Shown here one piece after another: positions 3,837-12,497 of a DNA stretch of 37,658 nt (positions within the stretch are counted from its first letter, which is position 1; the number at the start of each line of letters is the position of its first letter). This DNA comes from an uncultured bacterium (GTDB lineage: Bacteria; Dictyoglomota; Dictyoglomia; Dictyoglomales; Dictyoglomaceae), in NCBI GenBank assembly GCA_938034905.1, contig CALHLF010000010.1:70108-107765 (forward strand), in the 5' to 3' direction. The notes beneath the pieces are model-generated. The model saw only the letters and a list, made by a program, of their open reading frames with translations. It had not been told where the DNA came from and made no database searches. The position numbers were made by a program, and so were the translations under genes.

Positions 3837-4509
3837 TTTGATAGATTTTCCTAAAAGAATATCTTTTGTTATATTCACTCAGGGATGTAATTTTCGATGC
3901 CCTTTTTGTCATAATCCAGAATTAATATCTACAAGAAAAAAGGGGCAATATTCCGAAGAATTTATATTAGAAGAATTAGCAAGAAGGAAAAAGATAATAG
4001 ATTCAGTGGTGATAACGGGAGGAGAACCTACATTGCAAAGGGATCTCCCCCAGTTTTTATTCAAGCTAAAAAAGAGAAGATTCTTTATAAAATTAGATAC
4101 TAATGGGAGTAATCCTTATATGCTGATGGAGCTAATTCAGGCAAAATTAATAGATTATATTGCGTTAGATTTTAAAAATTCCGAAGGGAAATATGCAAAA
4201 ACTATTGGTTTAAAAGAGGATTTAGCAGAAAAATATTATAAGAATCTTATGGAGTCTTTGAGGATTTTAAAGAGAAGTAACATAAATTTTGAGATAAGAA
4301 CTACAATAATTCCAGAGTTAGTAGAAGAAGAAGATTTAAATAATATAAAAGAGATTATTGGAGATGTTCCCTATTATTTACAGCAATTTAATCCTGAGAA
4401 AACTCTAAATTTTGAATATAGATTTCAGAAACCATATTCCTTAGAAAAGATTATAGGTTTTAAAGAAAAAGTTAAAGGGAAATTAAGGGGAATTATTAAT
4501 TCTTCTTAG
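3808..4509 (+). CDS. nrdG: Anaerobic ribonucleotide reductase activating protein (radical SAM)
   Basis: NrdG uses S-adenosylmethionine and a 4Fe-4S cluster to install the glycyl radical on NrdD. The 233-residue protein carries the radical-SAM CxxxCxxC motif (Cys27, Cys31, Cys34), followed by a GGEPT motif. I chose the TTG at 3808 because an AAAGGAGAG site (3791-3799) sits 8 nt upstream, even though this overlaps the end of nrdD by 29 nt; the overlap suggests translational coupling. The protein is longer than E. coli NrdG (154 residues) and resembles the longer form common in thermophiles. Its 3' end overlaps the convergent transporter gene by 27 bp with no terminator between them. Confidence 0.93.
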   Translation: MKISGYLGFSLIDFPKRISFVIFTQGCNFRCPFCHNPELISTRKKGQYSEEFILEELARRKKIIDSVVITGGEPTLQRDLPQFLFKLKKRRFFIKLDTNGSNPYMLMELIQAKLIDYIALDFKNSEGKYAKTIGLKEDLAEKYYKNLMESLRILKRSNINFEIRTTIIPELVEEEDLNNIKEIIGDVPYYLQQFNPEKTLNFEYRFQKPYSLEKIIGFKEKVKGKLRGIINSS

Positions 4510-5664
4510 GACCAATAGGGCAATAATGGATATTATTGCTCCTTGAAGAAAATTAATTCTATAGCTTCCATAATCAATAATTAAACCCGAAACAAAGTAG
4601 GAAATAATTTGAGCCAAAGAAATTACTAAATTGTTTATTCCCACAAAGCTTCCTGCTTTCTCCTTGGGAATATAACTTAATAAAAGACTATAAGGCACAA
4701 TTGACAATAAGGATAAGCTTAGTCCATAGAGAATTAATGGGGGATAAATATGAATTAATCTATAGACCTGAGAGAAAAGAACACTACTTATGGCTAAAAG
4801 AGATAATCCTATCGCACTTAATTTATCTTTAGAATATTTGTCCGCAAGAAAACCTATGGGAATAGTGGAAATCCAAGATAACACTCCAAAAATACCAAGA
4901 GCAATTATATATTCCTTTAAAGAGGCAGAAAGAGCATCTTGAAAAAAGAGAAGAATAAAGGAACTAATAGAAGATATACTATACCATATTAACCATTGCA
5001 AAGCAAAGAGCTTAAGCCATATTCTTCCCTTGAAATAATTAAAATCTATAAAACCTTTATTATGTATTTTTCCTTCCTCAGGGATAAGAAGGAGAAATAA
5101 TATGGAAAGGATTATTCCTAAATAGATTAAGAGAAATTTTATAAAATCAGTATGGAAGAACAAGATTAGTACAATATATATCCCTTGAGCTAAATAAGAT
5201 GAGAAATTTAATATTCCTGTAGCCTTTGCAAAGAAATTTTTAGGTATTATATCTGGGACCAAGGATTGAAAAGGTGCAAGACCAGCAAAGAAAAATATGG
5301 AGACAAGTAAAGTATTTATATATAAATCTTTTAAATCTTTTGATCCTTCAAATCTTAAAAGAGCTAAGATTAAGAATAATAAACTGAAGATAATGATATA
5401 TTTTCTTCCTTTTAAAATCTTGATTAATCTATCGGATAGTATACCAATTAATGGTGGAACCACCATTCCCGCAAAACTTATTATGGCCATAATAGTTCCA
5501 ATTTGAGTTTTGGAGTTTGTAAATTTACTTAAGAAAAATATTAAACTAAAACTTCTAAAGGCAGAAAACAAAGAAAACCCAGTATTTCCAATTCCTAATA
5601 GAATTATTAACTTGTATATATTTTTTATCTCAACAAATTCTCTTTCCAACTCCTTAACCTTCAT
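4483..5664 (-). CDS. Major facilitator superfamily transporter
   Basis: A 393-residue membrane protein with about 12 hydrophobic spans and the MFS loop 2-3 motif A (GILSDRLIKILKGRK). MFS carriers move small molecules by uniport, symport or antiport; the substrate cannot be read here. It is the last gene of the six-gene operon that begins with the opine-dehydrogenase-like enzyme, and its ATG shares one base with the stop of the upstream gene (TAATG). By analogy with opine metallophore clusters, which include an MFS exporter, it may export the product of that operon; this is inference only. Its 3' end overlaps nrdG. Confidence 0.85.
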   Translation of the reverse strand: MKVKELEREFVEIKNIYKLIILLGIGNTGFSLFSAFRSFSLIFFLSKFTNSKTQIGTIMAIISFAGMVVPPLIGILSDRLIKILKGRKYIIIFSLLFLILALLRFEGSKDLKDLYINTLLVSIFFFAGLAPFQSLVPDIIPKNFFAKATGILNFSSYLAQGIYIVLILFFHTDFIKFLLIYLGIILSILFLLLIPEEGKIHNKGFIDFNYFKGRIWLKLFALQWLIWYSISSISSFILLFFQDALSASLKEYIIALGIFGVLSWISTIPIGFLADKYSKDKLSAIGLSLLAISSVLFSQVYRLIHIYPPLILYGLSLSLLSIVPYSLLLSYIPKEKAGSFVGINNLVISLAQIISYFVSGLIIDYGSYRINFLQGAIISIIALLVLRRINNSP

Positions 5665-5888
5665 TAATCCTCTTTGACTTCCTCTGGTATGTTTAATAGC
5701 TTATAAACTTCTTCTACATTTTTCTTATAAAGTTCAGATTTTTCTAATTCTCCCTTCTCTTTATAAATTTCTGATAAAATAAGAGATATTTCTAAAATAT
5801 TCTCAAAACTATTGATTTCTTTATAATAGCTCAAAATCTTTAAAAGGGTTTCAATTAAATCTTGAAATTCTCTCACTCCTTTTTTCAT
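5664..5888 (-). CDS. Small helical protein, TPR-like
   Basis: A 74-residue, Lys/Glu-rich protein predicted to be all-helical, with a pattern (SEIYKEKGELEKSELYKKN) resembling one tetratricopeptide repeat. It overlaps the stop of the upstream cyclase/ATPase gene in an ATGA arrangement, and the MFS gene starts on its stop codon. Because the upstream protein ends inside a TPR region, this could be the detached last repeat of an originally longer protein, separated by a frameshift; or it could be a co-translated partner. No independent function can be assigned. Confidence 0.6.
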   Translation of the reverse strand: MKKGVREFQDLIETLLKILSYYKEINSFENILEISLILSEIYKEKGELEKSELYKKNVEEVYKLLNIPEEVKED

Positions 5889-7897
5889 TCTTTTTTGAAC
5901 TCAAGATATATAAGATTTTTCTCAAATAGTTTTCTTTCAGGAATTTTTCTTTTATTTTTTAACTTTTCTCCAACCCTTTTTAAGGTCTTTTCTGCCTCTT
6001 CCAACTTATTACCCTTAATCTGGGCAGAGGATAAGTAAATTAAAGCAAGAATTAGCCATTCCTCAACCCCTAAACTCTCCCATAGTTCTACTGCCCTTTT
6101 AATATATCTTTCTGCCAATCCCAAATTTTCCATAGCTAAATAACAGGTCCCTATATTACATAAAGAATGGGCTATACCTGAGAAGTATTTTATTCTTTCA
6201 CATATATTTAAAGCCTTCTCATACAAGGTATAAAGATCATCTCTTTCCCTTCTTATAAATCTTAATTTTTGAAGTTTTGAAAGGGTACTTTTTATCTCAT
6301 CAATACTATATTCTCCTTTACTAAAGTAGATAATATCATTCAGAGAAAATCTTTTCCCCACTATAGAAGCCCAACAAAGGATATTTTTTGCTAAAGAATC
6401 TAAGGAATCTATTCTTGTCTGCATAATCCCATATATATTATCGGGAATCTTGTTTAAGATTTCTTCCACCTTAAAATTTCTCTCTTTAATAATTCCTGAT
6501 ATCTCTTCTAAGAATAAGGGTTTTCTTCCCAATCTCCTTACAATTTCATCGATCATCCTTATATTTAAGTTCGGAACAATTTGATTAAGTAATTCCTTGG
6601 CTTCTTCAAAGGAAAGGGGATTAAGATAAATATATAGATCTGGGCAAAGACCTTTTAGGGTTTTGCGAAGAACTTCATTAGTTCTATAAATTAATATAAA
6701 ACTTATGGGAAAGGATTTTCTAAGATTAACAATCTCCCTAAGAACTCTTATAGTAGAAGCATCTCCCCAATGAAGATCATCAAAAACAAATATAACAGGT
6801 TTATCTTTATATGTGGAAATAAAAATTTCTTCCAACAATATTTTCCACAATTGTTCCTTTGAGCTTTGATCCCATTGGGATAAGAGGTCCTTTTTTGAAA
6901 GAAATAAAAAATTTAATATTAAAGATTTATAGTATTCTAAAGGTATTATAATTTCCCTTTTAGCAAAGATCTTTTTTAATTTTCTTTCTATCTTTTCCTC
7001 TACTTCATTATCTTTAATCTTCCATATACTTTTTATAATCTCAAGTATAGGATAATAAGGAAAATTAGATGTATAGGAGTAGGCTCTTCCTTTATACCAA
7101 ATAAAATCGTTCTGAAACTTATTCTTTACTTCTTTAATCAATCTTGATTTTCCAATCCCTTCTTCTCCTTCTATTAAAATTAAAACCCCTTTATCTTCAA
7201 TCTTCCTCAAAATATTCTCTATATTTTTTAACTCCTTTTTCCTTCCCACAAAGGGAAATATTAAATTTTTTCTTTCTTTTCTCTCTCCTATTACTAAATA
7301 AGCTTCTACTTCTTTATTGAGTTTTTGTATATTAAACTTACCCAATTTTTTATATAAAAATCTTTTACTTGCTAACTTCAAAGTATTAGAGGTAACAATA
7401 ACTCTGTCTAAGGGGCAAAAATTCTGAAGATAAACTCCCTCATTTACAGGATCTCCTAATAAATCTAATTCTCCTTTTAACATTCCCTGCCAAACTTTTC
7501 CAGTAGATATAGCTATTTTTAAAGAGAGTTCTGGAATATCCTTCTTGATTTCTCTTACCTTATTTAAAATGGACAAGGAGGCCAAAATAGCTCCGTCTGC
7601 AAAATTCTCAAAGGATTTTGGAACTCCAAAGGCAGATATAAAACCATCACCTAAAAATTTTATTATCCTTCCACCATATTTTTCTACTTCTTTTTCAAGG
7701 ATATTAAATAGTTCTTTTATAAGCTCTGCAGTATCATCTACGCCTAATTTTGATAGGATTTGACTGTAGTTTTTCAAGTCTAAAACTAAGATAGAAGCTA
7801 ATTTTAATTCTTCCTTTATCTCTCCTAAAGGTTTTCCACAATTATAGCAGAATTTTGCCTCTTCGGGATTATCGGTTCCACAATTTGAGCATTTCAT
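5885..7897 (-). CDS. Zinc-ribbon, adenylate-cyclase-like, STAND-type ATPase protein
   Basis: A 670-residue multidomain protein. Residues 3-20 form a zinc ribbon (Cys3, Cys6, Cys17, Cys20). Residues 35-200 are a class III nucleotide cyclase domain: metal-binding Asp40 and Asp84, adenine-selecting Lys80 and Asp145, and Asn152 are present, but the transition-state Arg expected four residues after Asn152 is Tyr156. An AAA/STAND ATPase follows, with Walker A GEEGIGKS (244-251) and Walker B ending in Asp373-Asp374. TPR-like helices run from about 557 to the end. Relatives are usually about 1000 residues or more; here the winged-helix part appears joined directly to a TPR near residue 555. A regulatory or signal-transduction role is likely. 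It lies 6 nt after the ATP-grasp gene in the same operon. Confidence 0.8.
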   Translation of the reverse strand: MKCSNCGTDNPEEAKFCYNCGKPLGEIKEELKLASILVLDLKNYSQILSKLGVDDTAELIKELFNILEKEVEKYGGRIIKFLGDGFISAFGVPKSFENFADGAILASLSILNKVREIKKDIPELSLKIAISTGKVWQGMLKGELDLLGDPVNEGVYLQNFCPLDRVIVTSNTLKLASKRFLYKKLGKFNIQKLNKEVEAYLVIGERKERKNLIFPFVGRKKELKNIENILRKIEDKGVLILIEGEEGIGKSRLIKEVKNKFQNDFIWYKGRAYSYTSNFPYYPILEIIKSIWKIKDNEVEEKIERKLKKIFAKREIIIPLEYYKSLILNFLFLSKKDLLSQWDQSSKEQLWKILLEEIFISTYKDKPVIFVFDDLHWGDASTIRVLREIVNLRKSFPISFILIYRTNEVLRKTLKGLCPDLYIYLNPLSFEEAKELLNQIVPNLNIRMIDEIVRRLGRKPLFLEEISGIIKERNFKVEEILNKIPDNIYGIMQTRIDSLDSLAKNILCWASIVGKRFSLNDIIYFSKGEYSIDEIKSTLSKLQKLRFIRRERDDLYTLYEKALNICERIKYFSGIAHSLCNIGTCYLAMENLGLAERYIKRAVELWESLGVEEWLILALIYLSSAQIKGNKLEEAEKTLKRVGEKLKNKRKIPERKLFEKNLIYLEFKKE

Positions 7898-7903
7898 GTA
7901 AAA

Positions 7904-8857
7904 TTATGTTCCTTTAATTCTTTTTAAAGCACTCTGAAGAATTTTTAATATTAAATCTTTATAGGAATATCCTTTAGCATTAGCCATCTTTATTATATCC
8001 GAATAATTGGGAATTAATAAAGGTAAAGAATTAACGTCTAAGATATGTATTTTATCTTCTTTAATTCTCATATCAATTCTTGCATAATCCCTAAGTCCAA
8101 AGGATGTAAAAATTTTTTTGGAAATTTCTTCTATCTTTTTCTCTATATTTTTTTCTATTCTTGCAGGACAAATATATTTTGTTTTATCTCCATATTCTTT
8201 TTTTACCCTCTCAGAGTAAAATTTTTCAATATCTTCAGGAATAGAAGAAAAATCAATCTCTAATAAAGGAAGGATTTCTAAATTATCATTATTTCCAATT
8301 ATTCCAACACTTATTTCTTTTCCTTCAATATACTCTTCTACAAGGGCCTCCTCCTCAAATTCTTCATGTATAAACTTTACAGCTTTTTCCAATTCTTTCC
8401 TGTTATCTACTAAAGATTCCTTTCTTATACCTTTTCCACTACCCTCTCTATTTGGCTTTACAAATAATGGAAAGGAAAGATCTATATCCTTAGGAAGATC
8501 TTTCCCAAAGGGGATAAGAATATATTTGGGAGTATCAATTCCGTAATAGTTAAGCACTATTTTTGTTAGGTTTTTGTTAACACATAGAGAATGAGTGTAG
8601 GCATTGGATCCTATATATTTTATACCTAAAAAATCACAGATAGAGGGAATAATAACTTGTTTTGTTTCCCTCCCTTGAGTATGTAGGTTAAATATGAGAT
8701 GGGCTTTTTTTATTTTTTCTATAAAACTTAAGTCTTCGAAGGATATGGGAATTAACGAAACTACATAGCCTTCCTCTTTTAAAATTTTTTCAATTTCCTT
8801 TACCATCAATTGATAATCCTTTGTTGTTGGAAAATTGAAAGTTAATCCTATGTGCAT
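7904..8857 (-). CDS. ATP-grasp ligase, D-Ala-D-Ala-ligase-like
   Basis: A 317-residue ATP-grasp enzyme that should join a carboxylate, through an acyl-phosphate, to an amine. An LFVKPNREGSGKGI segment is the ATP-binding lysine/glycine loop. ALVEEYIEGKEISVG is the hinge region, and ARIDMRIK plus HILDVNSLP supply metal ligands in the positions of the EVNTLPG motif of D-Ala-D-Ala ligase. The GEDG segment and the N-terminal Glu/Ser residues of a true Ddl are not evident, so peptidoglycan D-Ala-D-Ala synthesis is unlikely to be its job. It starts 10 nt inside the end of the B12-protein gene, so the two are probably translationally coupled. Likely substrates are amino acids made by its operon partners; unproven. 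Confidence 0.8.
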   Translation of the reverse strand: MHIGLTFNFPTTKDYQLMVKEIEKILKEEGYVVSLIPISFEDLSFIEKIKKAHLIFNLHTQGRETKQVIIPSICDFLGIKYIGSNAYTHSLCVNKNLTKIVLNYYGIDTPKYILIPFGKDLPKDIDLSFPLFVKPNREGSGKGIRKESLVDNRKELEKAVKFIHEEFEEEALVEEYIEGKEISVGIIGNNDNLEILPLLEIDFSSIPEDIEKFYSERVKKEYGDKTKYICPARIEKNIEKKIEEISKKIFTSFGLRDYARIDMRIKEDKIHILDVNSLPLLIPNYSDIIKMANAKGYSYKDLILKILQSALKRIKGT

Positions 8858-10485
8858 AGTAGTCTTTCAATTCTTTCTTTTTCTTTAATTATTCTTCCTC
8901 TGCTATCTATACAGTAATTAGCTCCGTTAATTACCTGAGTTCTTACCTCTCCTTTGGCAATGGAAAATCCTTTAAGTCCAGGAGCGTCTAAAATTCCACA
9001 CTTTATTGCATTATAAATATTCTCAGGAGATAGAAAATCTTTTTCTGATTTTGCCAAGCTTTTTATAGCTGATAAGATAAAAAGGGCTTCTTCTTTTAAC
9101 TCTTCTTTTCTCTCTTGAACTTCAGGATCAGAAGAAAAGTCAGGAAGACCCCATGAGGTTAAAATATATGCTCTCTTTACCATCTTTATGCTCTCTATGA
9201 TTTCTTTACTTGTAGCAGGATATAAAGCCTCACAGTAGGATACTACATGGATTATATTAGGTTTTAAATATGAGCCGTAAAAAATAGAAGATACAAGCTG
9301 TCCCATAGCTGAATAAGGATCTGCAGGAAAAGACAAAAGTCCTGTTCGGATCATTATATAGGGAGTAAAATTCTCATCTTTAAGGTTATCTAATAATTCT
9401 AATTTGGCAAGGGATTTGGCAATATCCATTTTGGGAGATAAATTGGGAGGAGTATTTAACATAATTTGAGCAATATATTCCTTTACTCCTAATTTTTTTG
9501 CCACTAATGCTGAGATATAAAAAGTAGCAACCCCAATGGAATCATGAGCATTTCTCAATTCCCATTGATGAGATTCATTTATTTCTACCGGAACATTATT
9601 TTCCACATTCCATTTTATAGCAGAAATATTTTCCTTTATAGCAGATAGAAGCTCTCTATCAGATCTTCTATCCAGTTGAGAATACCAAGTAAGGGGGATA
9701 GCAGCCCATGCATTGTTTATAGTCTCCTTTAAAAGTTTTGAAAATTCAATTAAATTTCTCGTTCCAGAATAGCATCTTAATAAAGGATAATTCCCTCTTC
9801 GTGAAGCCTCATATAACCTTATAAAGTCTTCTCTTTTTCTTAGTGGAACTCCCCCTGCCCCATCCTGCTTTGGATCCATTTTATCAGGCTCAAAGAAATA
9901 ACTTTGAGTATTTTGGTCGGGAGCAATAGATATAATATCAAGTAGCAAAGAATCTGCTAATTTTTCAATCTCTTTTATAGTTTGTTCCAAGCTTGGAAGT
10001 CCTATATGATGTCTAAAAAGGGGAAATGGCTTTTTCCATATGATTCTCTCCTTTAAGTTTTGAGGATAATCCTTTTTCTTGTCTTTGGATATAACTTCTC
10101 CTTGAATACTCTTTAAAAAATCAATAACATCTTCAATTTCTTCAGTTCCATCAAAAACTTTGTAGATAAAGGAAAATTCTCTGGCAGTATCGCCTGTTTC
10201 CTTTGTTCCCCCAAAAATAAAGATTCTATTTTCAAGCAAGTTTTTACTCTTGAGTTCTTTTTCTAAATCTAAAAGGAGATTTTTTAAGGGACCTTTTCCC
10301 AATCTATAGCTTATAGCCACAATTTCAGGATTTGCTTCCAATATGGCTCCAATTAATTCCTTTATAGAGATAGCTCCTCCAAGATAGATAGATTCAAAAC
10401 CTAAATTTTTAGCAAGTTCCAAAAAATTTAATAATCCTGCTACATGAATACAGCTACCAATACTTGCCCCTAAGATTTTCTTCAT
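8848..10485 (-). CDS. Single-chain glutamate-mutase-like coenzyme B12 protein (MutS-MutE fusion)
   Basis: A 545-residue protein with an N-terminal cobalamin-binding Rossmann domain (about 1-135) joined to a TIM-barrel half. The base-off B12 motif is GSCIHVAG with cobalt-ligand His14 and Gly17; the Asp of the usual DxHxxG is Cys12. IFGGT (90-94) is the downstream GG motif. By eye, residues about 155-545 follow the glutamate mutase epsilon subunit, including the C-terminal 'GILDAPG... DSRGRI' stretch, but the arginines and glutamate that bind glutamate in MutE are not clearly kept. It likely catalyses a carbon-skeleton rearrangement of an unidentified acid or amino acid. Its ATG overlaps the stop of the opine-dehydrogenase gene (ATGA). 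Confidence 0.75.
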   Translation of the reverse strand: MKKILGASIGSCIHVAGLLNFLELAKNLGFESIYLGGAISIKELIGAILEANPEIVAISYRLGKGPLKNLLLDLEKELKSKNLLENRIFIFGGTKETGDTAREFSFIYKVFDGTEEIEDVIDFLKSIQGEVISKDKKKDYPQNLKERIIWKKPFPLFRHHIGLPSLEQTIKEIEKLADSLLLDIISIAPDQNTQSYFFEPDKMDPKQDGAGGVPLRKREDFIRLYEASRRGNYPLLRCYSGTRNLIEFSKLLKETINNAWAAIPLTWYSQLDRRSDRELLSAIKENISAIKWNVENNVPVEINESHQWELRNAHDSIGVATFYISALVAKKLGVKEYIAQIMLNTPPNLSPKMDIAKSLAKLELLDNLKDENFTPYIMIRTGLLSFPADPYSAMGQLVSSIFYGSYLKPNIIHVVSYCEALYPATSKEIIESIKMVKRAYILTSWGLPDFSSDPEVQERKEELKEEALFILSAIKSLAKSEKDFLSPENIYNAIKCGILDAPGLKGFSIAKGEVRTQVINGANYCIDSRGRIIKEKERIERLLCT

Positions 10486-11567
10486 TTCTCTCCCTCTTCA
10501 ATATATTTAATTATCTCCTCAACAGTCATATTATTGAGTCCTAAACTTTCTACAGTTCTTCCTTTAGCAAAGTAATCTTCTCCTATCATTATAGAAGCAA
10601 GATGAATTATAGAATCTATAGTAGGAGTTGAAATACCAAAATATCTTCCAAAAGAGGAGATAGGCACAAGACTCATAGGTACGTCTTCTAATATATATCT
10701 ATTAGCTATAACAGTAGGAGCTAGAATATCTCTATATCCTGAATTACTATGGATAGCTTCATATAAATCCTTTCCATCTACGTCATAGGCATATTTTAGC
10801 CATTGCTTTGCAGTAAGGGGTTCTGTTTTAAGAGTTCTCATAACTTTACATCTTTCTTCATCAATTGCTTCTAAAACTTTGGCTACCGAGGGAGATATTC
10901 CCTCAAAATAGAACTCGAATTTACCAAAGGTAAATTCAATTCTTGCTGCATTAAGAATAGTGGTTGCAGGATGAAATATAGCACCTATATTGTTAAAACT
11001 TGTAATGATAATATTTTTAGCAATTTCAAATTCAGGCATTACTTTTTTTAAAGTTTTTTGCAAAATCGGATTATCTTTAGCAGGAAGGCAAGAAACAGGT
11101 ACTGCATTTTTCTTTTTAAATATTCTCACAACTCCAGGATTAGAGCATCTTGAGGCGAATATAAAAGTTTGGGCTTCTGCTATATATACCTTTTTATTAC
11201 ATCCTACCTCCTTTAAAACCTTTCTAAATTCTAATGCTCCCCCTGTTCTCCCTGGATTCAAGATTACTATTTGTCCCTCCTCTAAATGGGGAGCTAATTT
11301 TTCTGCAATGTCTTTATGGGCAAAGGCAGGAACTACAACTAAAATCAATTCCCTATCTTTAATAGCCTCTTTTATATCGGTAGTTGCTAAGGATATTTCG
11401 TATTCTCCTGAATATTCACCCTCTAATATGACTTTTCCGGTGTTTATTATGGGCTCTATTCTCCATAGACTACGGTTATATAAAGAAATATCATAACCTT
11501 TCATGGAAAGATATCCTGCTAAAGCTTGCCCTCCGTTTCCTGCTCCAATAACACAGATTTTAAGCAA
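10482..11567 (-). CDS. Octopine/nopaline dehydrogenase family enzyme
   Basis: A 361-residue NAD(P)-dependent enzyme of the opine dehydrogenase family, whose members reductively condense an amino acid with a 2-oxo acid. The N-terminal Rossmann motif GAGNGGQA, a central NNIGAIFHP with the family's catalytic His, and a C-terminal helical domain with the family's 'GRYFGISTPTIDS' segment are visible. The start is TTG at 11567, with a weak GAGGCGAG site and a good promoter upstream. It is the first gene of the six-gene operon and overlaps the B12-protein gene by 4 nt. Related proteins of unknown function are common in anaerobes, so the substrates are open. Confidence 0.82.
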   Translation of the reverse strand: MLKICVIGAGNGGQALAGYLSMKGYDISLYNRSLWRIEPIINTGKVILEGEYSGEYEISLATTDIKEAIKDRELILVVVPAFAHKDIAEKLAPHLEEGQIVILNPGRTGGALEFRKVLKEVGCNKKVYIAEAQTFIFASRCSNPGVVRIFKKKNAVPVSCLPAKDNPILQKTLKKVMPEFEIAKNIIITSFNNIGAIFHPATTILNAARIEFTFGKFEFYFEGISPSVAKVLEAIDEERCKVMRTLKTEPLTAKQWLKYAYDVDGKDLYEAIHSNSGYRDILAPTVIANRYILEDVPMSLVPISSFGRYFGISTPTIDSIIHLASIMIGEDYFAKGRTVESLGLNNMTVEEIIKYIEEGEK

Positions 11568-11599
11568 TTTTCTCGCCTCGGTTCATATTCTTTTTTAAG

Positions 11600-11629
11600 A
11601 GGATATCATTTTTTTATTTAAATCGTCAA
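11600..11629 (-). promoter_or_regulatory. Promoter of the opine-dehydrogenase/B12/ATP-grasp operon
   Basis: On the minus strand TTGACG (11629-11624) and TATCCT (11605-11600) are 18 bp apart, 33 bp before the TTG start. No terminator is visible after uppP just upstream, so readthrough from the rpmH-uppP operon is also possible. At 63 bp the gap is too short for a cobalamin riboswitch. Confidence 0.6.
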
Positions 11630-11630
11630 A

Positions 11631-12497
11631 TTATCTTATAGCCATTTTGATCCCTAAATATAAAACAGCTATGCAAAACATAATAATAGAAAAAATTTGC
11701 AGTTTTAAATAAGCAAATATTATCGCTAAGGCAAGAATAAATCTATAATAAGAGAAAACCTCCAAAGAGGATTTTTTTACATAATTTAATAGTACATGAA
11801 TAGTAAATAAACTTGTTATAAAAGATATAATGGTTCCATAAAGAATCAAGAATAATTCTCCAGAATTTCTACTTTTAATTAAATCTAAAAATCTAAAAAA
11901 TATAGCTCCCCCAATTATAGGAAGAGATAAATAGAAAGAAAATTTGGTTGCATCTTCCCTCTTTAATCCAGTAAACATACCCCCTGAAATGGTGGATCCA
12001 GATCTTGATACTCCAGGAAAAAGGGAAAGCACCTGCCAAAAACCTATAATTAAAGCCTTTTTGACATTAAGATCCTTTATCTCTAATTTCCCCTTTGAGG
12101 ACTTTTCCAAAAGTATAAATACTATCCCAAAGGTTATTAATCCGATAAGAATTATCCATATAGCAAAAGAGTATTTTTGGGGTTCTGAAATTTTTTCTAC
12201 ATAAGGATCAAGAATCATCCCAAAAATTCCTGCAGGAATTGTAGCTAAAAGAATTAATCCCAGAAATCTTCTTTTTTCTCCCCCTTTAAAGATGCTTATT
12301 ATTAACTCTTTCCAATCTTTTATAAAATAAATGAGAACTGCTAAAAAAGTGCCTAAATGAAGTCCCACATTAAAGGTAAGTCCAAAGTCGGGAATTTTAA
12401 CAAAATATGGAATCAATATTAAGTGAGCGGTACTACTTATTGGTAAAAACTCTGTTATTCCCTGAACAATCCCTAAAATAACTACCCAAAGCCCCAT
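11631..12497 (-). CDS. uppP: Undecaprenyl-diphosphatase (BacA/UppP)
   Basis: An integral membrane phosphatase that converts undecaprenyl diphosphate to the monophosphate and so recycles the lipid carrier for cell-wall synthesis. The 288-residue length, about eight hydrophobic spans, and both family motifs support it: QGITEFLPISSTAHL near the N-terminus and PGVSRSGSTISGG in the middle, which supply the catalytic Glu, Ser and Arg. The ATG follows a GGGGAGG site 15 nt after mnmE. It is the last gene of the rpmH-rnpA-yidD-yidC-jag-mnmE-uppP run. Confidence 0.96.
   Translation of the reverse strand: MGLWVVILGIVQGITEFLPISSTAHLILIPYFVKIPDFGLTFNVGLHLGTFLAVLIYFIKDWKELIISIFKGGEKRRFLGLILLATIPAGIFGMILDPYVEKISEPQKYSFAIWIILIGLITFGIVFILLEKSSKGKLEIKDLNVKKALIIGFWQVLSLFPGVSRSGSTISGGMFTGLKREDATKFSFYLSLPIIGGAIFFRFLDLIKSRNSGELFLILYGTIISFITSLFTIHVLLNYVKKSSLEVFSYYRFILALAIIFAYLKLQIFSIIMFCIAVLYLGIKMAIR

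Follow-up and report, generated by a model that had tools for sequence, protein, structure and literature searches.

Which of the six tightly packed minus-strand genes in this stretch belong together, and what might they make? The window analysed here (the whole stretch of 37,658 nucleotides (nt) from an uncultured Dictyoglomaceae bacterium with a genome of 1.84 Mb) encodes a dehydrogenase of the octopine/nopaline family (ODH), a protein in which a B12-binding domain is fused to a glutamate-mutase-E-like TIM barrel (the B12 protein), an ATP-grasp ligase resembling D-Ala-D-Ala ligase (Ddl), a cyclase/STAND regulator, a 74-residue open reading frame (ORF) and an MFS transporter. A sequence-only reading had taken all six as one operon, in which dehydrogenase, B12-dependent rearrangement and ligase build a product that is exported as in opine metallophore systems. 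We found that ODH, B12 protein and ATP-grasp ligase are almost certainly a conserved functional unit, while the other three genes are, judged from sequence, best treated as accessories specific to this genome. The best overall explanation is a horizontally acquired biosynthetic module for an opine-derived compatible solute, a reading that stands about as good a chance of being wrong as of being right.

Neighbourhoods were counted at 95 bacterial and archaeal loci; in the GTDB genomes scanned, at least 577 stretches held confirmed relatives of the B12 protein, and 80 of these were retained. The retained relatives come from Thermotogae, Thermoanaerobacterales, Tissierellia, Halanaerobiales and Bacteroidales as well as from several contigs labelled as archaea (with the module in L055, L058, L064, L072 and L104), and many are metagenome-assembled genomes (MAGs), for which single taxon labels may be wrong. 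At 86 of the 95 loci an ODH gene lies no more than two genes from the B12 gene on the same strand (several of the nine loci without this neighbour are contig ends), and an ATP-grasp orthologue lies within four genes at 32, so that the conservation check favours the earlier grouping of the first three genes. The six-gene operon as a unit fared only partly well, since the cyclase/STAND gene, the small ORF and the MFS gene are not conserved with the module. The order ODH-B12-ATP-grasp is common to many Thermotogae copies. Strong matches to the B12 protein were present in 14 of 385 other sampled genomes of the domain, where ODH adjoins the B12 gene in every case with the flank present, the ATP-grasp gene being adjacent in six. 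Across the 386 genomes, a close ODH (E≤1e-60) and the B12 protein each occur in 15 and both together in 14, and more distant ODHs (29-35% identity) are found without the B12 protein. The ODH and B12 protein trees are correlated as well (r 0.74, versus a permutation maximum of 0.36). In L058, a contig labelled Theionarchaea, a NAD-synthetase-like gene (9616-10401) sits between the B12 and ATP-grasp genes.

The gene combination had been described as unfamiliar, a view overtaken by the literature: a B12-ODH family was predicted in 2009 by Zhang, Rodionov, Gelfand and Gladyshev in 11 bacteria, with no function proposed, always adjoining PF02317 and in several organisms lying near D-Ala:D-Ala ligase and asparagine synthase (PMC2667541). 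The window has the features of this family (a B12-binding N-terminus fused to a TIM-barrel-like region, and an adjacent PF02317 gene at 10482-11567), and family and module also share Clostridia and Thermotogae as hosts; because of this report we regard the window locus as a further copy of a published, uncharacterised module whose association is not new. The 2009 study reported neither a riboswitch nor a MutE fold for the family, whereas the relatives assembled here include archaea-labelled contigs and loci with riboswitches for cyclic di-AMP (c-di-AMP) (PMC2667541). An open-access search, lacking most subscription journals, found no literature on the B12-ODH family after 2009.

The AlphaFold model of the B12 protein (predicted local distance difference test, pLDDT, 88.9) has glutamate mutase E (1cb7_B) as its top Foldseek match (E 1.1e-13, template-modelling (TM) scores 0.58/0.64), followed by ornithine and lysine aminomutases. 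The window protein matches MutE of Pfam with an E-value of 0.0017 (1.9e-05 for the best relative) and a score below the family cut-off (17.4 bits vs 26.6). The cobalt-ligand histidine, His14, is found in 94 of the 95 orthologues within a C-x-H-x-x-G or D-x-H-x-x-G motif (position 12 being Cys in 74 and Asp in 20). GlmE numbering was taken from the canonical MutE of the same genome, aligned full-length to 1cb7_B; the positions of the glutamate-binding residues Arg66, Arg100, Arg149 and Glu171 were confirmed on 1cb7_B. In a weak profile alignment, Glu419 (94/95) of the B12 protein aligns at GlmE Glu330 and an invariant Gln194 (95/95) occupies the Arg100 position, the placement of Arg66, Arg149 and Glu171 being ambiguous. 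The module protein thus resembles glutamate mutase (GlmE/MutE plus GlmS/MutS) in its TIM barrel, B12-binding domain, cobalt-ligand His and Glu330 equivalent, but differs from it in that both parts are fused into one chain, the B12 domain leading, and in having Gln at the Arg100 position. Taken together, we predict that it is very probably a B12-dependent mutase; by modelled fold it appears to be a glutamate-mutase-type enzyme, yet by the MutE cut-off and the Arg100 position it falls outside glutamate mutase proper. A separate canonical glutamate mutase E is encoded elsewhere in the genome (contig C33; L145 1378-2841) and is present in all seven family genomes.

The dehydrogenase has a Rossmann domain and an Octopine_DH helical domain with His/Asp catalytic residues (PF02317, 1.4e-46), the closest solved structure being that of N-(1-D-carboxylethyl)-L-norvaline dehydrogenase (1bg6; phmmer 4.4e-80), ahead of octopine dehydrogenase (E 4.8e-18). 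His199 and Asp295 are invariant in the 82 ODHs aligned. ODH thus shares fold family and catalytic residues with 1bg6 and octopine dehydrogenase, but differs in its near-obligate B12-mutase partner and in the motif after strand 2, where Arg32 (82/82) and Asn31 (78/82) replace the acidic residue (Asp) of norvaline dehydrogenase. This motif suggests NADPH as the cofactor, which in turn would favour reductive synthesis.

The ATP-grasp protein shares its ATP-grasp domain with Ddl (Dala_Dala_lig_C, PF07478), but the acceptor-site signature NT-x-PG-x-T is replaced by NS-LP-LL (DVNSLPLLIP). Because this signature is lost and a canonical Ddl that keeps it (EVNTIPGMT) is encoded on contig C11, the module enzyme is probably not the D-Ala-D-Ala ligase of the cell. 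An AsnB-like gene is found in 13 module loci, and most of the encoded proteins begin M-[SAP]-G or otherwise lack an N-terminal cysteine, the MCG start being retained in three Thermoanaerobacter-type proteins. Partners of ~445-475 residues without the glutaminase cysteine (L096 9639-10976, L103 4927-6261 and L108 6630-7970; further examples at L055 8075-9418 and L060 3420-4847) resemble beta-lactam synthetase. In distant copies an alanine-racemase-family gene adjoins the ATP-grasp gene (L031 5547-6596, L092 8701-9417 and L105 4138-4980).

A physiological context came from the leaders. When 38 Firmicutes loci, the window and eight other module loci were scanned with the c-di-AMP riboswitch family RF00379 of Rfam (cut-off 38 bits), we detected the element (63-118 bits) directly before the operon in 26 of the 38 Firmicutes loci, each time on the operon strand and 1-170 nt ahead of the earliest possible start of the leading gene, which is ODH in 23 cases and the ATP-grasp gene in three; no RF00379 was found elsewhere in the scanned DNA. 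In L022 and L083 the module has MscS-type genes close by, in L103 and L108 ODH is followed by weaker mechanosensitive-channel matches, and L021/L022 encode a Na+/H+ exchanger and a CBS protein in the neighbourhood. A precedent among osmolytes is N-acetylglutaminylglutamine amide, whose synthesis involves an ATP-grasp and an AsnB-like enzyme. There is also a precedent for the regulatory arrangement, in that a c-di-AMP OFF riboswitch precedes the gene for the precursor of another unusual amino-acid osmolyte, N-epsilon-acetyl-beta-lysine, although the enzymes of the module are an ODH and a B12 mutase (PMC9337991). Because of the riboswitches, with the mechanosensitive-channel and Na+/H+ exchanger neighbours as independent support, the module product is rather likely to be a compatible solute with an osmolyte role. 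The link between c-di-AMP riboswitch and module was not found in the open-access literature searched, many journals lying outside it, and we provisionally regard it as new; it provides the first concrete physiological handle, osmotic adaptation, on an orphan B12 enzyme and makes the pathway testable. One Bacillota MAG (L110) carries a fluoride riboswitch (6685-6746) upstream of the B12 gene.

From these elements we infer a substrate, an order of steps, a product and an osmotic role for the module. ODH would use NADPH to couple an amino acid and a 2-oxo acid to an opine-type secondary amine, and the B12 protein would bind adenosylcobalamin and carry out a radical rearrangement of the carbon skeleton of the opine, or of one part of it, giving an unusual and metabolically inert isomer. 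With a pyruvate-derived opine this would convert an N-(1-carboxyethyl) into an N-(2-carboxyethyl) group (HOOC-CH(CH3)-NH-R to HOOC-CH2-CH2-NH-R), the aza-analogue of turning 3-methylaspartate into glutamate. A chemically easier alternative would be a glutamate-derived opine as substrate, with the mutase moving an N-substituted glycyl group. The ATP-grasp ligase, or in other genomes the AsnB-like enzyme (often without the glutaminase cysteine), would then form an amide or lactam, and the product would most likely build up in the cell as a compatible solute, its synthesis in Firmicutes being under the c-di-AMP riboswitch as an OFF switch when turgor is adequate. The earlier scheme of dehydrogenase, rearrangement and ligase therefore remains reasonable for the three conserved genes, but not in its export and metallophore part. 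That the B12 protein performs this specific opine rearrangement is a tentative proposal, and a doubtful one is its generalisation, in which adenosylcobalamin mutases would convert N-(1-carboxyalkyl)- to N-(2-carboxyalkyl)-amino acids ahead of an amide-forming or beta-lactam-synthetase-like ring closure, defining a new class of compatible solutes in thermophilic and anaerobic bacteria and archaea. If the compatible-solute reading of the module is correct, thermophiles, clostridia and archaea would have an osmolyte not recognised so far, and there would be an additional class of B12 mutase.

How the module reached this genome is suggested by its relatives. None of six relatives from the same genus or family has a full-length match to the B12 protein (one weak match of B12-domain size was the only one), and a search for plasmid homologues found none. 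The window protein groups with that of an unclassified bacterium (L032; support 0.62), and this pair sits within a clade (support 0.95) that is made up of Thermotogae and two Bacteroidales MAGs; this placement, along with the absence from all close relatives, indicates horizontal acquisition from a Thermotogae-like source. The window MFS protein is 84% identical to the copy in relative G002 and also present in most other relatives, and in G001-G004 its gene is convergent to nrdG as in the window, without ODH, B12 or ATP-grasp genes beside it. The bacA-mnmE-jag-yidC block found upstream in the window is located elsewhere in G001-G004. Since the two blocks are apart in relatives, the window represents an insertion or rearrangement junction with the module between two native blocks, and the MFS gene is probably functionally unlinked to the module. 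The STAND gene is without orthologues among the genomes of the family; its homologues elsewhere are ~1,100 residues long, and residues 1-545 and 546-670 of the window protein match regions ~200 residues apart, so that 5664-7897 probably holds a decaying cyclase/STAND regulator gene with an internal deletion of ~200 residues. The 74-residue ORF, which gives weak matches to the TPR part of the STAND homologues (best E 1.7e-4), is probably a TPR remnant of the gene upstream of it. The apparent exporter and regulator of the window are probably genomic accidents, and recognising them as such avoids a false metallophore annotation.

Several observations weigh against a compatible-solute module. The B12 protein shares 17-18% identity with MutE, a weak sequence alignment, and, in chemical terms, an amine migrates less favourably without pyridoxal phosphate than the glycyl group does in glutamate mutase. 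The leader in the window contains no riboswitch at the gathering score and none credible at E≤5, and RF00379 is absent from the eight other loci scanned, seven of them Thermotogae or unnamed and one labelled archaeal, so that the osmotic link comes from the Firmicutes relatives. Moreover, c-di-AMP riboswitches control cell-wall genes too (PMC9337991), and at eight or nine loci of Tissierellia type the module is found downstream of 2-oxoacid:ferredoxin oxidoreductase, ferredoxin, ptb and buk genes, an arrangement that would fit amino-acid fermentation. Loci of this type with ptb/buk upstream are L056, L057, L062, L065, L066, L069, L071 and L073. A catabolic module, in which the B12 mutase and an oxidative ODH produce a fermentable 2-oxo acid from an unusual amino acid or opine, would account for this arrangement, for a YheO/PAS_6-HTH regulator ahead of the module in five Thermoanaerobacter-type loci and for the kinship with glutamate mutase, itself catabolic. 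We consider it unlikely, as the ODH motif is of the NADPH type, a third of the loci have an ATP-consuming ligase, no uptake gene is conserved, and the Tissierellia loci concerned have the riboswitch after the oxidoreductase genes and ahead of ODH (L065 6680-6813, for example), which separates the transcription units. The regulation of cell-wall remodelling genes by the same riboswitch class, the Ddl-like ligase, the alanine-racemase-like neighbours in the three distant copies and bacA directly upstream in the window would suit a role in the cell envelope, with ligase and dehydrogenase supplying peptidoglycan with a modified amino acid or dipeptide; this is distinctly unlikely, given that the module occurs in the archaea-labelled contigs (archaea being without murein), bacA lies elsewhere in relatives lacking the module, a separate canonical Ddl is present and the module has no conserved murein-specific neighbour.

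Synthesis and export of an opine metallophore, suggested by the ODH family resemblance and the MFS gene in the same operon, is very improbable. The exporter link fails because the MFS gene adjoins nrdG in four relatives without the module, and no MFS neighbour recurs at other loci, L030 excepted, where a distant ODH-B12 pair (7137-11944) has a different MFS gene beside it, together with very large ORFs. In addition, ODH belongs with the norvaline dehydrogenases, neither a nicotianamine-synthase-like gene nor one for metal uptake was recognised, and the leader is of the c-di-AMP rather than a metal-responsive class. The L030 dehydrogenase was considered as a staphylopine dehydrogenase and rejected, as Pfam gives PF02317. 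A two-enzyme route from alanine to beta-alanine for coenzyme A, by opine formation, rearrangement and oxidative release, would need only the invariant ODH-B12 pair and would suit the window genome, which is without PanD; with PanD in 7 of 14 other module genomes versus 256 of 386 overall (no clear replacement pattern), and with six Dictyoglomus-like relatives lacking both PanD and the module, we give it hardly any credence.

Table 1. Positions of the features in the window and of representative RF00379 riboswitches at other module loci.
Feature	Positions	Strand	Remarks
ODH (octopine/nopaline-family dehydrogenase)	10482-11567	-	361 aa; TTG start, GAGG Shine-Dalgarno-like stretch ahead
Fused B12-binding and glutamate-mutase-E-like TIM barrel protein	8848-10485	-	545 aa; predicted adenosylcobalamin mutase
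Cobalt-ligand motif C-x-H-x-x-G, B12-binding domain residues 12-17	10435-10452	-	orthologue alignment
Ddl-like ATP-grasp ligase, predicted amide-forming	7904-8857	-	317 aa; PF07478 2.4e-36
Zn-ribbon/class III cyclase/STAND-ATPase/TPR regulator, internally shortened	5885-7897	-	670 aa; accessory to module
Helical ORF, probably TPR remnant of STAND gene	5664-5888	-	74 aa; no Pfam match
MFS transporter, native to family	4483-5664	-	MFS_1 8.1e-28
bacA-ODH gap, promoter-like TTGACG-18-TATCCT, no riboswitch	11568-11630	-	63 nt
RF00379 riboswitch, L050	6604-6771	operon strand	Rfam
RF00379 riboswitch, L061	6671-6802	operon strand	Rfam
RF00379 riboswitch, L062	6658-6786	operon strand	Rfam
RF00379 riboswitch, L063	6660-6792	operon strand	Rfam

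As to the layout of the locus (Table 1), the single promoter claimed for the operon by the sequence-only reading was not established: the TTGACG-18-TATCCT sequence lies at 11629-11600, bacA ends 63 nt upstream, and promoter-like sites number 31 vs 35.8 in shuffles, i.e. not above chance. The six packed minus-strand ORFs themselves were confirmed, no overlap or gap being longer than 10 nt (from ODH to MFS a 4-nt overlap, a 10-nt overlap, a 6-nt gap, a 4-nt overlap and a 1-nt overlap), and the family assignments were upheld by Pfam, which matched Octopine_DH, B12-binding, Dala_Dala_lig_C, AAA_16, Guanylate_cyc, TPR and MFS_1, along with the weak MutE match.

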